Shown here one piece after another: positions 2,426 through 24,911 of a stretch of 59,101 nt of DNA. Position numbers and translations under genes: made by a program. Origin of the DNA: Bryopsis sp. KO-2023 (lineage: Eukaryota; Chlorophyta; Ulvophyceae; Bryopsidales; Bryopsidaceae). The DNA lies in assembly GCA_030272585.1 (NCBI GenBank), contig BSYQ01000022.1, forward strand, positions 1 to 59,101. Direction: 5' to 3'. The stretch's first letter is position 1; each line of letters begins with the position of its first letter. Under the pieces are notes generated by a model. The model saw only the letters and a list, made by a program, of their open reading frames with translations. It was not told the origin of the DNA and did no database searches.

Positions 2426-5400
2426 ATGCCCCCAGGGGAGCCGTATGAACGCTCTAGCCAACCTAGAACCCTGGCTCGTGGAGCCATTAATTGGAAACAC
2501 AGGCGAAACCAAATTGATCTCGCCAAATGTGTTATGGAGATCCGGGGAAGATTTTCTGGGGAGAGGACTAAGTGGATCATGGTACTTGCTAAATGGATTA
2601 ACACTCATTCATTTGCAGTCAACACTTCAGTCAACGCTCTTCAAAAAGCCTACGCTGGCTTAACGGAGGCCGCAGTTTTGGAGGCAGAGAAGGAACTGCT
2701 GGAGGAGTCCATCGAAAGGAGGGTCACTGGAAGCTTAAGGGGTGGTGACCAAAGGATATCGAGTACAACCCCACTCTCAACGGAACAAAGGGATGATGAT
2801 CCGACTGCTGAAGTCATAGCTCAGACGCTAGCTCCGGACACACCACAAGACGGTCTACCAATGGAAATGGAGATGGACGTTCCGGAGGCGGACCTCGACT
2901 TGGTTGACTCAGAAATTTATGGTGATGCGACAAGAGTGATCCAAGCTGGGATTGATGGTGAAATTGCAAAAAGGTGCTATCAGAAAAATCAAGAACTATC
3001 AACCCGGTTTTGGATTGTTCTGGGCGAAATTCTCGAGAATGAAGGAGATTTTGCGTGCCGACCCCGTTTTGTCAAGTTCAAGCTTAGAAATGTGGATAAG
3101 GATGTAGTGGAGATCGTAAAGGACCTGGTGGAGTCCTCTTTATTGAGGATTCAGAATTTGTCCCTATGGAAAATTAACTGTGTAGCATACGCAGCTACAT
3201 ATGTATGTGCTAAGGAAGTCAAGAGCCGGCAAATAGACGTACATAAGTCAAGATTGGCGAGATGTGATGCCAAGTTGGCTCAGTTAAGGAGGATCTGTAG
3301 CTGGCTTGCTACCGAGCAAGATCGGCAGGACAAAAAGGGAAAGATAACACCAGGACTTCAACGGATCCGATACGAACTCCGGAAACGCATTGGCCGACTG
3401 AGTAAAAGAAATATAAAAGCCAATTTGACAATCTATGCTCAGAAGGTCAAGGGGGCGAACTTGCGACGGAACTAGGCACGGGATCAAGCAAGAGAAAGTC
3501 TCGAGAATGCGCTTTTCACGGATGACCAGAGAAAGTTTTATGAGTACATCAAGCATCGAGGGAAACCACGGATCTACAAAAATGCTCCAACAGTTGGCAT
3601 GGACTCGGTTGAAGAATATTGGTCAAGTATATACGAAAATCCACACGACTTCAATCGGAGAGCTAGCTGGGTAAATCCATGGGGAACGTACATTGATACG
3701 GTAATGGAGGAAGTGTCGGAGATGGATGAGCAGGCGGAGGCGGTAACGCTTGGGGAAATAGATAGTTCGATCCGAGGAAAAGGTGGATTACGGGCTCCAG
3801 GTTGGGATGGTATCCCATACTGGACATACAGGAATTTCCCGGCTCTCAAAGAAAGCTTATGTCATAGCTTTTCAAGACTAATGAATGAGAGTGCAGGAAT
3901 TCCTGAATGGTTAGTCCAAGGACGAACTATTCTAATCCCCAAGCCGGGGAAAAGTCTTGACTCACCGGAACACCTGTGACCCATTACATTATTGAATACT
4001 ATGTACAAGATATTCACAGGGGTCGTAGGTGGAAGGCTAAACCGGTGGGTCAAACCGGTCACCCAAGACCTAGTAGAGCAACATGGAGGAGCCAGTAAGG
4101 GCAGGTTGGACCTTGGTTGTCAAGGAGCCCTTCTGGTGGATTCCGCAATCTCTGGTGATGCTCAACGTAATAGAAAAACGTTGAGGTCGGCCATGGTCGA
4201 TTTAGCGAAAGCTTTCGACTCAGTGTCGCACGAAGGCTTAGTGCGACTGATCCAGAGAATGCGAATCCCCATGTTGCTAAAGGATATAATAGAAAGACTA
4301 GTGTCTTCTTGGGTGACCAAATTTGAGTTGAGAGTGGGGAAGGAAAGGAGTACATCGAGGTCCATCACCCTAAAGCGAGGGATCTTCCAAGGAGATACGC
4401 TAAGTCCACTACTATTCTGCCTTGCAATGGCCCCCACAACAGTTATGTTAAGAAAAGAAGATCAGTGGGAGTGGGGTCTTGCAAGAGAGAGACTGCCTGT
4501 CTATGCCTTTAATCATCAAATGTTCATTGATGACTTAAAAATGTATGGCAAGTCAGAGCAGCATCTCGGGCAGTTAATAGTAGTGGCAAGGAGGAGTTGT
4601 GAGGAGATGGGCCTTCAGTTCAGCATTGAGAAATGCGCTAAATCTGCGGTCATCAGAGGAAAACAGCCCACCGGGATGTCGACAGGCGTCGTTTTTGCCA
4701 TGCTTAGCCCAGGAGATACATACAAGTATCTGGGAATACCCCAAGGACACGTCAATAGCCCTACAGAGTTTAAAAGAAAACTAAAAAGTGAGTATTACAA
4801 AAGAGTCCACCTTGTGTGGTCGTCAGGTTTGTCGGCCAAAAACAAGGTGGTAGCTCACAACTCTTGGGCTGTTGGCGTGTTCAAATATGCATTTGGGGTT
4901 CTGGCATGGACAAAAACGGAGCTGGAAATTGTCGACCGTCGCACGAGGCATATCTTACAATCATGGGATTGTCACAAGCGACTAGGGAATATGGATCGAC
5001 TCTACATGTCAAGGGATAAAGGAGGAAGGGGCCTGGTGGCCTTATATGAGGAATACATGTTAAGAGTCATCCACATCGCTTGTAAGATATGCCTCATCCA
5101 GACTCCAATTCTGCGGGTGGTTGGAGCCCATGACCGTATCCCGCAAAATCCACAGTTGAGGGAACGCTATCGAAGGAAACGTGTGATTCTTGGGCGGGCG
5201 GAGGAAATGGGTCAGGATGCTGGAATCCAAATTGGATTCTCACCGCAGGGCGGCATGGAGGCGAATGGAGAAGTCATAAATGAAGTGAAGAAAATTGCCG
5301 CCCTGTTACGTGACATCAAGAGAAGTCTTCAAGAAAGGAGAGTGTCATGTTTACTTGATAAACATGACATGGGAAAATATATGAGGACGTTGAAGGAAAG

Positions 5401-6153
5401 ATCTCTTGATGTTAGTAAAACTTTCGGGTGGTTGAGTAGCAGCACGCTGCGCAGCCGTTTCGAAAGTTTGGTGTTTGTAGCCCAAGAAGAGCGCCTACCC
5501 ACGAATTATGTACTACACCACGTTATGAAGAAAGCGGACCATCCATTGTTTTGCCGCACATGCAAAAATCGTCGGAAACAGTGAATCATATTCTTGCCGG
5601 CTGTTTTGAGTGTTATGGGCTCAATTCTTATTTGAGACGTCATAATCAAATTTTAAAGTGGATCTATGCCACAATAAGAAAGGGAATGGGTATGGACCAG
5701 ATTATGCAAAGCCCTAACACTATCAAAACGCCCGCATTGTGCGAATACGATGGATATCAACTATGGTGGGATTTTAAATGGACTGCGGTGACAGCCAGTG
5801 CGACAAAACCGGATATGGTGATCGTGGACAAGAGGGGGTCCAAGCTTACAATAGTTGAAGCTACATGCTGCTCCGAGTACCATATGACAGATCGTTACAG
5901 AGAGAAAGAAGAGAAATATCGCCACCTCGCAGGAGATTTAAGGAAAATCTATGGAGGGTATGAGGTGGCGATAGTACCAGTTGTCATAGGGGTGCTCGGA
6001 GGCATAGGCGAAGGGAGAGTAAGCTTGGACCACTCCCTCTCACGAATCCCATTCTGTGGCAAACAAAGGGAGAGCCTGCGAAAGGCCATACAGAAGAGCG
6101 TGCTGCTGGAGTCCATCCGTCTACTAATGTTCCATCTCAGCCAACCTTCCTGA
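2426..6153 (+). pseudogene. Non-LTR retrotransposon pol (RT + zinc knuckle + restriction-like endonuclease)
   Basis: A polyprotein of about 1240 codons from an R2/CRE/NeSL-type LINE, which copies its RNA into a nicked genomic target. In order: an N-terminal W-rich, Myb-like stretch (INW...W...VLAKW, codons 30-70); a pre-RT segment with LSLWKINCVAYAA; RT motifs including LAKAFDSVSHEGL (about 4204), GIFQGDTLSPLLF (about 4380) and catalytic FIDD (4523-4534); a CCHC knuckle (CRTC at 5552-5563, H at 5587, C at 5602); and a restriction-like endonuclease with KPDMVIVD (about 5806) and EAT (about 5856). Three lesions are visible: in-frame TAG at 3473, in-frame TGA at 3977, and a one-base frameshift near an A5 run at about 5563. 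It is otherwise well preserved, so the copy looks fairly recent. Confidence 0.92.
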
Positions 6154-21870: not shown

Positions 21871-22233
21871 CTTCGTGGTTAAGCCGGTGAAGGAGATGGC
21901 GGGCAAATTTCGAGTAACAATATAAGCACAAGTAAAAACTTGTCAAGAGAAACTTTAGTTGTAATATGAGGATTTTTGGGGGGTTCGTATCTTTTACGAT
22001 AAGGGACATTAATAATAGATCGAATTAAATAATTATAGTTTATCTTTTCGCGTCGAGTGAAGGATGTTCTAAAAGATATTGAATTGCTACTAGGATGCAA
22101 TCTTCGTTTCCTTTACAAGGTTGCTATTGAGTCTGTCAAATCAAACCCCCAAATATCGTTGCCTTTTGCGCAAAAGCTCGCGTACTATAGCGATGCCCTT
22201 TGGCCGGTACTTCGGCGTTCGGAAACACGTGTT

Positions 22234-22699
22234 CAGAGATAGGACTTTCCGGTTACGGTACCGTAAACCGTACCGTAACCCCACTCCGGTCACTTACGGT
22301 TACGGTAGTTACGGTCCGGACCGGAGTGGTTTTCGTGCTCGGAACCGGACCACCGTACCACTCCGTACTGCTCCGGTACCGGACCGTACCGACCGTAACC
22401 ACCGTACCAACCGTAAACCGTAAATAGTAACCCCCGCAGGGTCCCGAGAACCCAAAGGAACCCAAGGGGATTCGAACCCACGACCTTACAGACTACAGCC
22501 TAACGCTTTAGCACTGAACCACACTACTTCACGATGATTTAGGGGCTACCGTAGCTATACCGTACCTGTTCCGTACCGTAAAAACAACATATTACTCCGG
22601 TTACGGTACGGAGTTACGGCCGTAATACGGAACCGTAAACCGACCGTAACCGGACCGGACCGTAGCCGGACCAAAAATTTGGCCCAAGTCCTATCTCTG
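22234..22699. mobile_element. hAT-type palindromic element H1 with tRNA-like core
   Basis: The ends are perfect 14-bp inverted repeats, CAGAGATAGGACTT and its complement. They are flanked by identical 8-bp copies of CACGTGTT (22226-22233 and 22700-22707). An 8-bp duplication and CAG-starting TIRs are hallmarks of the hAT superfamily. The arms are packed with inverted motifs of the ACGGTACCGT/GGTCCGGACC type, so almost all of the 466 bp folds on itself. No transposase is encoded, so it is non-autonomous. The centre (22466-22527) holds a tRNA-Tyr-like sequence on the minus strand. Confidence 0.88.
22466..22527 (-). repeat. tRNA-Tyr-like core of element H1
   Basis: Read on the minus strand: an A-box-like GTGGTTCAGTGCTAAAGCG, an anticodon region GGCTGTAGTC (GTA, as in tRNA-Tyr), AAGGTCGTGG and a perfect B box GGTTCGAATCC. 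Order and spacing are those of a tRNA, but the anticodon stem pairs poorly. It probably works, if at all, as a pol III promoter or is a relic, not a charging tRNA. Confidence 0.65.
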
Positions 22700-22707
22700 C
22701 ACGTGTT

Positions 22708-23726
22708 GACGACCCGCACATCAAGCACAGAACGAAACTTTTTTGGTTCGGGTTTAGGCATTCTTTCAACCAGGGACTCTTTGAAGAAAATTGAACATTC
22801 GATTGAGATTAATTCGAATTGAAAACGAGGTGTATTGTGAGTCATGATGGTAACACATATACTATTAGAAGAAGATATGCGAATGGGTGAGATTGACGAC
22901 CCTCTCCCCCGAAAAATGTGGATGTCTTATTTAAAATAGAGATCATCTGTATTTGTGAGTCACACATACGGCTAAGTTCATCACCACGGACTTTTTGCCT
23001 CTAAGCCTGGTGGAATCACTCGGCTTTAGAGCTTTTTGAAAAGCCTGGACCCAAAATCCCCCGATTTCGGCGGGAAGGCACTAAGCACAGAAATCCAAAA
23101 CCTGTATAACACCGCCGTGGAGAAGCTTAGTGGGCTGGAGGATTGGTTAGTAGTTCAGCCCTCCTACACCTGTGATTTGCGGAGCATCCGGGCCCAAAAG
23201 GAATTTATAACGCTAACTGGACATTGGGTGACAGAGAAAAGGGTGGAGGGACTGAGGGGGCTGCGAATGGGTGGGTCCTCGAGCGAAGGATCTTGGTCAC
23301 GGTGGGCCTGGGAGGAGAGCAGGCAACCGCCGAAAACATAGTGTCACGGTGGCAGGGCTCGGCATGATAGCCCCATGTCCCACAATCACTACAGACTGTG
23401 GGGCTAATGTTTAAAAAAACCTTTGATGGCTGTTTAGCATGGGATTGGGTACGGTATTCATGCCACTCAGTGCATAAATTATGTAGCATAACATCGTATC
23501 GTGCGGGGTCCAAAAGGTTTTGAAAATAAGTTATTTTCCCTTGGGTGACACTTGAATTACATGCCGAAGTATAATCAGCAAATGATTTCAGATTTTAAGG
23601 GGTTGATGTCTAGGCAAAGGGCTGCTAGTGGCAGTTTTTTTCATGCTCTAACGTAGAAGTTCGGAGAGTAGATGGCGTCTCTGAAGGATTTGATGGAATT
23701 GGAAGGGTCCACTGTATATGTTTGTT
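22708..23726. other. Sequence between the two hAT elements, with one GC-richer ORF
   Basis: The frame at 23036-23341 (open to TAG, 101 codons) ends with FITLTGHWVTEKRVEGLRGL. This faintly recalls the C-terminal motif of the two ORF1-like proteins (GRWSLVTERVV and GKWVEITDLVV). I cannot show homology by eye. The remainder is not recognisable. Confidence 0.3.
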
Positions 23727-23734
23727 GTCATGAG

Positions 23735-24891
23735 CAGACCTGGGCCCGACCGGACCGGCAGCGAAAAACCGGTCCGGTCCGGTCCAACCTGTCCATGGAC
23801 CGGCTGACCTGTCCGGTCCTGTCCGGTCCAACGGAAAAACGCCGGTCCTTGCAAGACCGGACAGGTTGTGACCTGTCCGGTCCTGTCCACTCCGGTCCAG
23901 TCAACCTCGGAAATCTGCAGAAATCTGGACCGGTTTTCTGACAGATTTTCCGTTTTTAGACAGGTCACACCCACATTTCGCCTTTATTAGACCGGCGATG
24001 TGACCTGTCTAAAACCGGAACGACCCTGTCTTGACAGGGTTGTTCTCCTGTTTCAGACCGGCTCCAGGTCGGTCTGGACAGGTGGGCTGCCTGTCCAGAC
24101 CGACCTGGAGCCTGTCTAGAACAGGTCGCACAATTAAGCACTTTTAACGTGCTAATTGTGTATCAATCGATTGGGAGCTGATTCAATTGATTAAAGAACG
24201 AAGTGTTATTTATTATACACATTTTTAATGCATGAATGACGTGAGCCAAGCCCACCAGCCACCGACTAGAGGGAGTCGGTCGACTCAAGGAGGATTCGAA
24301 CCCGGGTTGGCTAAGCCCGAGTCGAAGGCACTATCACTAGTGGACCCCACCACAGGGACGCTCAAAAGGGGGCCGTTACTTTTAAGTACCCGCTTAATTT
24401 TGGAAAATTAATGCACGTCATTCATGCATTAAAAATGTGTATAATAAATAACACTTCGTTCTTTAATCAATTGAATCAGTTCTCAATCGATTAACACATT
24501 AAAAAGTGCTTAATTGTGTGACCTGTTCTAGACAGGTGCCAGGTCGGTCTGGACAGGCGGCCCACCTGTCCAGACCGACTTGGAGTCGGTCTAAAACAGG
24601 TCATATTGGGCGTCACATCGGTCTAAAACAGGGTCACACCGGTCTAAAACAGGTCACACGAGTATGACCGTACTAGACAGGCGACAACCTGTCTGGAAAG
24701 GTCAAATCCGGTCTAGAAAGGTCAAATCCGGTCTAGAAAAGGTGGCCTTTATTAGACCGGATTTGACCTTTCTTGGACCGGATTTGACCTTTCCAGACCG
24801 GATTTGACCTGTCTAAGAAAGGTCAAATCCGGTCCAGAAAGTGGTTGCCGGTCCGGTCCGGTCCGGTCCAACGAGTCGACGCCCAGGTCTG
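23735..24891. mobile_element. hAT-type palindromic element H2 with tRNA-like core
   Basis: The 1157-bp element begins CAGACCTGGGC and ends with its reverse complement. It is flanked by perfect 8-bp duplications GTCATGAG (23727-23734 and 24892-24899). The arms consist of GGTCCGGTCC-type and GGTCTAAAACAGGTC-type repeats, and the halves are inverted copies of each other out to an asymmetric centre of about 170 bp. One internal hairpin has a perfect 23-bp stem (24060-24082 with 24090-24112). The inner arms also match, e.g. CGAAGTGTTATTTATTATAC and its complement. There is no transposase. It shares architecture with H1 but not sequence. Confidence 0.88.
24288..24352 (-). repeat. tRNA-like core of element H2
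   Basis: The minus strand gives GGGGTCCACTAGTGATAGTG (A-box-like), a central CCTTCGACTCGGG, and a perfect B box in ACCCGGGTTCGAATCC. The cloverleaf is imperfect and I could not assign an anticodon with confidence. It differs from the H1 core, so the two elements did not simply share one insertion. Confidence 0.6.
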
Positions 24892-24911
24892 GTCATGAGG
24901 CCAAAACCTCA

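Follow-up and report, generated by a model that had tools for sequence, protein, structure and literature searches.

Two short, multi-copy elements of the giant-celled green alga Bryopsis sp. KO-2023, H1 (466 bp) and H2 (1,157–1,305 bp), are best explained as hAT MITEs that carry a shared TFIIIC/Pol III-type cassette, and we put the probability of this reading as a whole at roughly 0.55. Its parts differ in strength. The division into a hAT chassis plus a shared cassette is very probable, and at least four hAT end-types share the B-box plan. The odds that TFIIIC or Pol III would engage the cores, by binding and transcription, are about even, and a benefit of the cassette to the spread of the elements is suggested tentatively.

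H1, H2 and their relatives

Both elements lie in the window, the whole 59,101-bp stretch that was analysed, which is the entire contig C22 of the 91-Mb, 28-contig assembly used for the genome searches. An Hsp90 encoded on contig C8 of the assembly shows 100% identity to BSKO_09438 of Bryopsis sp. KO-2023. The window was scanned for CAG..CTG ends at most 4 kb apart, with at most two mismatches in the TIR and at most one in the 8-bp duplication, and H1 and H2 were the sole matches. The coordinates, 8-bp duplications and CAG-starting TIRs given in the preliminary description proved exact, with perfect TIRs of 14 bp in H1 (CAGAGATAGGACTT) and 11 bp in H2 (CAGACCTGGGC). No window ORF of 130 aa or more was found inside either element. 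Elsewhere in the window, an ORF at 3992–5584 carries a reverse-transcriptase domain (E 1.3e-20). The features are as follows, with the strand given where one was assigned.

22226..22233: H1 left target duplication, CACGTGTT
22234..22699: H1, non-autonomous hAT element, 466 bp; TIRs 22234–22247 and 22686–22699
22234..22357: H1 left arm (subterminal motif array), 93.5% identity to one end of a 6,385-bp hAT
22424..22545, minus strand: H1 core, a single alpha-type unit; bounds set by eye, from homology to the H4 and H5 units
22468..22478, minus strand: exact B box GGTTCGAATCC of H1
22596..22699: H1 right arm, 93.3% identity to the opposite end of the 6,385-bp hAT
22700..22707: H1 right target duplication, CACGTGTT
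23727..23734: H2 left target duplication, GTCATGAG
23735..24891: H2, non-autonomous hAT element, 1,157 bp; TIRs 23735–23745 and 24881–24891
24047..24127: hairpin flanking the central module, left copy; duplicated relative to core-less relatives
24159..24243: central module, left AT-rich arm
24247..24387, minus strand: gamma unit, the left member of the pair in full-length copies
24292..24302, minus strand: exact B box GGTTCGAATCC of H2
24411..24414: site of the lost second, plus-strand unit; about 150 bp extra here in most other copies
24414..24498: central module, right AT-rich arm
24522..24602: flanking hairpin, right copy
24892..24899: H2 right target duplication, GTCATGAG

The arms had been described as built of short inverted motifs, and the counts bear this out. 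Exact 12-nt inverted words covered 29% of the bases of H1 and 45% of those of H2, whereas 200 dinucleotide shuffles gave averages of 0.7 and 0.3%. With the window divided into 126 consecutive 466-bp tiles, some of them running across parts of H1 or H2, no tile reached the level of H1.

The best 40 genome places for H1 showed 99–100% identity. Perfect 8-bp duplications flanked 25 of the 28 fetched loci (the exceptions were L042, L046, and L055), and the exact B-box 12-mer was present in all 28, which had been picked from the best matches. With up to one mismatch, the H1 TIR occurred at 872 genome sites compared with 16 for the control. On contig C1, 76 such sites formed 34 pairs, 30 of them 465–467 bp long, one 436 bp and one 330 bp, while the remaining two (581 and 823 bp) are an apparent artefact of one nested pair; the 12-mer was found in 32 of the 34. 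The exact GGGTTCGAATCC had 1,043 genome sites, and the reversed pattern had 3. By these counts, the core is part of the amplified families.

For H2, perfect 8-bp duplications were found in 26 of the 30 fetched loci (not at L010, L022, L027, and L036). The full-length form, present in 21 of the 30, measures 1,299–1,305 bp and has one outward-facing B box on each strand. With one unit and 148 bp less than the 1,305-bp form, the window copy is by comparison of copies a deletion derivative of that form. The ends and duplications of the H2 described from the window are therefore real, but the complete element is longer and contains two inverted units.

Members without the centre, which the preliminary description had named as evidence against its proposal, were found for both elements. 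A core-less element of 330 bp has H1 TIRs and the duplication CACCCAAC, and core-less relatives of H2 (682 and 672 bp) have H2 TIRs, perfect duplications and a match to the outer parts of H2, without the module. Among the best 40 places for a core-less H2 query, 8 matched unbroken (the query itself and seven at 88–95%) and 32 matched from position 267 onward at 96–97%; many of these 32 are known H2 places, and the presence of the module was read in part of them. Since core-less relatives have also transposed, the core is dispensable for transposition as such. In core-bearing H2, an 84-bp hairpin (positions 267–350 of the core-less query) lies on either side of the module. This duplication exceeds that made by transposition, and repair at a palindrome could leave it.

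A parent was read through to both ends for H1 alone among H1–H4. It is an autonomous hAT of 6,385 bp (C2:1989450–1995834, L092 with L099) with ATGTGGAG flanking both sides, and it has short TIRs in common with H1. Its ends are about 93% like the H1 arms, over 124 and 105 bp, and the motif CCGTA/TACGG reaches 70 and 57.5 per kb in its outer 400 bp compared with 2.7 in mid-element. One of its ORFs contains a hAT dimerisation domain (PF05699, E 5.9e-19), while the second tested ORF (355 aa) had no Pfam match. The assignment of both elements to the hAT type was thus upheld, by duplications and TIRs in both and by the parent of H1. Because the arms match the ends of this hAT, the H1 arms are hAT subterminal repeats. 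The only B boxes found within the parent belong to an H3 element nested there, which makes the core of H1 an addition.

Searched as a protein, the H1-type transposase half yielded a single relative. In a visual comparison of the first 100 listed H2 TIR sites with hAT-domain places, the nearest one examined (L093) was a core-less H2 MITE. At L089 (C1:5016950–5021500), a C-terminal half of an H1-type hAT adjoins a GATCGG-rich stretch with an H3-TIR-like end, and homology to another copy ends at the border of the two.

The central B-box unit

The plan of H2 is repeated in three further elements, each with two outward-facing units. H3 has the TIR CATACTATGGATC and GATCGG arms, with the duplications TTCGTTAG, GCGCCGAC, and CCTGCTGC in three copies. 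H4, of 963 bp, has the TIR CAGAGCTGGGCAGT and the duplications ACAGGTGC, TCAACGAC, and CTCAGAGG in three copies; three of the five copies fetched together were cut or interrupted. H5 is a hybrid with an H3-type end and arms and an H4-type unit, seen in one copy with the duplication ACTGGCAG. Since H3, H4 and the hybrid H5 repeat the plan, the unit behaves as a cassette. These hATs are often nested in one another or in the H1-type hAT (L004, L008, L010, L033, L043, L048, L049, L081, L092, and L104). An insertion preference for cores was considered and set aside: 10 of 71 duplication-bounded copies lay in or beside library elements, only about two of them in cores.

Pairing was scored on the best 40 places for each half-module query, with the unpaired places read in part. 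Divergent pairs made up 39 of the 40 for alpha (H4), 45 nt apart; all 40 for beta (H3), 64 nt apart in 39 and 78 nt in one; and 31 of the 40 for gamma (H2). In a few divergent pairs one half was shortened. Within these 40 places for each query, no standalone unit traceable as a SINE was recognised, nor was a SINE nested there with a duplication of its own, which the preliminary description had named as evidence against its proposal.

The B box is exact in H1, H2, and H3, and has one mismatch, at the first base, in H4. Of the A/B-box segment reported at the centre of both window elements, the B box was confirmed as exact and on the minus strand in both, but the A box was not significant in either: it matched 6 of 8 positions in H1, equalled by 66% of 500 shuffles, and 5 of 8 in H2, equalled by 98% of shuffles. 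In H3 and H4 the A box was borderline (6–8% of shuffles) and at tRNA-gene spacing. A GGTATATWAT word stands upstream at the same alignment place in H3, H4, and H5, with looser words in H1 and H2. No downstream TTTT was found in H1 or H4. In H2 and H3 the right halves lacked it but the left halves had it, as did H1b, H1c, and the L008 copy of H3. The absence of a TTTT terminator was dropped as an argument.

The cores had also been called tRNA-like. ARAGORN found no tRNA in the whole window, and Rfam none there at the gathering score; in eight loci, including H1 and full-length H2, Rfam gave no tRNA-family match at E ≤ 5. As a positive control, 63 scored tRNA places in the genome reached 50–77 bits. 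The H1 and H2 cores are therefore ruled out as tRNA genes, and "tRNA-like" can only mean B-box-like. Descent from host tRNAs was examined against 10 tRNA loci of the Lys and Ile types only, 9 of them called by ARAGORN, with the B box masked and the top 3 of the 10 taken for each of five cores. Of these 15 pairs, 2 of 200 shuffles equalled the similarity of H4 to L109, and at least 20 of 200 equalled that of each of the other 14. Contig C5 has many near-identical tRNA matches (G000:C5:2779182–3144253 and 3665776–3768604), often at intervals of about 3.0–3.5 kb that suggest tandem arrays; those loci that were read were of the Ile or Lys type.

The first 30 exact B-box sites, all on contig C1 and so not a random sample, fell in H1- or H2-type elements (17), in an LTR-like repeat (6) and elsewhere (7). 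The repeat, about 365–378 bp long with TG..CA ends, has one exact and one near B box and occurs on C1 as like pairs about 12–53 kb apart (L064/L065, L066/L067, and L082/L083). It looks like a retrotransposon LTR and was set aside as a separate kind of element. A further repeat with the B-box 12-mer, with near-identical flanks on both sides, was seen at L072 and L079 (C1:2744581 and C1:3946437).

Kinship and conservation of the units

The units were compared with the B box masked and with 200 shuffles. The similarities of H1–H4, H1–H5, and H4–H5 were far above the shuffles, and that of H1–H3 was clearly above them (scores of 47 and 34 compared with maxima of 25–26). The similarity was slight for H1–H2 (30 compared with a maximum of 25) and H3–H2 (25 and 24 compared with 24), and near chance for H4–H3 and H4–H2. 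On this sequence comparison, H1, H4, and H5 have homologous units between different ends, and the units of H3 and H2 may be related to the others. The statement that H1 and H2 share no obvious sequence therefore holds for the arms, but the cores are weakly similar. Convergence on one layout had also been proposed. The layout does recur in at least four end-types, but the cores of H1, H4, and H5 are clearly homologous, so the unit is shared, which explains these three better than independent convergence.

Paired units were better kept than the adjoining DNA in most elements compared. Between the halves of one element, 439 of 448 unit positions were identical in four representatives (H2 L023, H4 L102, H5, and H3 L010), while the centre had 125 of 155 and the near arms 351 of 465. 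In further copies the units matched at 110 of 112 positions (H4 L106 and L031, each) and at 105 of 112 (the H3-type L008); in the H3 copy L092 they were no more alike (93/112) than the centre (32/38). Such likeness of halves may also arise by gene conversion within the palindrome.

Between copies, the 21 H2 elements had 11 variable sites in 216 unit positions compared with 39 in 319 of the AT arms and centre (p 0.006), and the units were no less variable than the outer arms and hairpins (p 0.52). The 28 H1 copies differed more in the core (16 differences in 122 bp) than in the arms (19 in 344 bp; p 0.012), with no core difference inside the B box.

Origin and possible role of the cassette

In the mechanism that we propose, the chassis is a pair of hAT ends, with short TIRs and subterminal motif arrays to which the transposase would bind, as in other hATs. 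A hAT transposase supplied in trans would cut and join these ends and leave 8-bp duplications, a step well supported for H1 and assumed by analogy for the others. The cassette is the B-box unit of about 110–140 bp, present as two outward copies in H2–H5 and as one in H1. At the centre, the unit may bind TFIIIC and perhaps start Pol III, doubled so that each half has one. A TFIIIC/Pol III role is the likeliest because of the exact B box, the borderline A box of H3 and H4 and the GGTATATWAT word of H3–H5. As the likeliest benefit, the complex at the centre would keep the donor DNA accessible and so favour mobilisation.

The most serious competitor, which we regard as possible though on balance doubtful, is a functionless B-box fragment that break repair or template switching brought into the palindrome centre, and that was copied along thereafter and passed from one hAT family to another when gaps were repaired between similar palindromes. 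The transposition of core-less relatives, the 84-bp hairpin on either side of the H2 module, as palindrome repair could leave, and the higher variability of the H1 core than of its arms all fit such a passenger. It accounts less well for units that, in most elements compared, agree better between the halves than do the centre and arms, for H2 units less variable than the adjoining AT arms, and for a B box unchanged across H1, H2, and H3 apart from the first-base mismatch of H4. "Extra TFIIIC" sites are known from other eukaryotes, and the cores might likewise recruit TFIIIC but no Pol III, serving as boundaries or as nuclear tethers. An exact B box with a weak or absent A box in H1 and H2 would suit this role, which we nevertheless consider unlikely, as the A-box-like words of H3 and H4 at tRNA-gene spacing and the conserved TATA-like upstream word of H3, H4, and H5 resemble start-site signals.

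Two other accounts have little in their favour. Transcription of the palindromic element into double-stranded RNA and then small RNAs is improbable, in spite of the dense inverted motifs; microRNA-precursor matches in H2-, H3-, and H4-type arms and in other stretches were weak, all below the gathering score, and were dropped. Outward units in a palindrome would give like, not complementary, RNAs from both halves, and only read-through from outside could give a full hairpin. By this reasoning from the layout, the self-complementary RNA suggested in the preliminary description is a weak idea. The separate insertion of a tRNA-derived SINE into each MITE is the least probable account. The alpha units are SINE-like in their B box and shared 3' tail, and MER6 offers a precedent (PMC6887750). 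Against it stand the fixed-spacing divergent pairs at 39, 40, and 31 of the best 40 places (alpha, beta, and gamma), the lack of a tRNA-model match, and module borders formed by the 84-bp hairpin duplication in H2 and, by eye, by inverted and not direct repeats in H4 and H5.

The hAT MITEs with a TFIIIC/Pol III-type cassette can be set beside several known systems. tRNA-derived SINEs have a B box and a shared tail. The Bryopsis elements resemble them in the B box, in the A-box-like word of some families and in the shared tail, and differ in ending in TIRs with exact 8-bp duplications and in pairing their units. MITEs with captured SINE parts and core-sharing MITE families are already known, the former from MER6 and the latter from CMITE. 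MER6/MER6A is a Tc1/mariner MITE of mammals that has captured an Ac1-like V-SINE (PMC6887750). Like the Bryopsis elements, it has the ends of an autonomous element around a SINE-related insert and was amplified as one DNA element; it differs in being a single mariner family with TA duplications and in that the tRNA-related head of the SINE lies outside the match (PMC6887750), whereas the Bryopsis elements are hATs on several chassis, with the B-box unit present and paired in a palindrome. The coral CMITE families likewise have an internal region common to families with different TIRs and, outside the ends, weak resemblance to the autonomous parent, but they are piggyBac-like, about 100 bp long and flanked by TTAA duplications, and the text does not mention tRNA or polymerase III (PMC2872659). 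BniHAT-1/2 of Brassica nigra are also high-copy non-autonomous hAT elements, and the opening of the abstract mentions no B-box core (PMC7385995). The subterminal repeats of Kat1 (PMC4763223) and Hermes (PMC10368747) are reported to be bound by the transposase. These repeated motifs inside the ends are comparable to those of the H1 parent, and the putative binding motifs of the Bryopsis elements differ in each family. In the open-licence literature, searched by titles and abstract openings, we found no description of hAT MITEs with paired B-box cores and none of the transposons of this Bryopsis genome. As far as that literature shows, pairs of B boxes carried by several hAT chassis represent a new variant.

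A bolder extension, which we consider rather unlikely, is that a mobile, outward-facing pair of Pol III-type B-box promoters has spread across unlike hAT MITE chassis within this one alga and raised the success of its carriers. Such a pair, in the same speculative vein, would be the DNA-transposon counterpart of a SINE head, kept paired in a palindrome. The centres of MITEs are usually taken as filler; here a homologous unit sits on different ends, and its pairs are mostly better kept. This makes it testable whether internal sequence, notably one for the Pol III machinery, aids the spread of a DNA transposon, and B-box scans of such a genome may largely count transposons.
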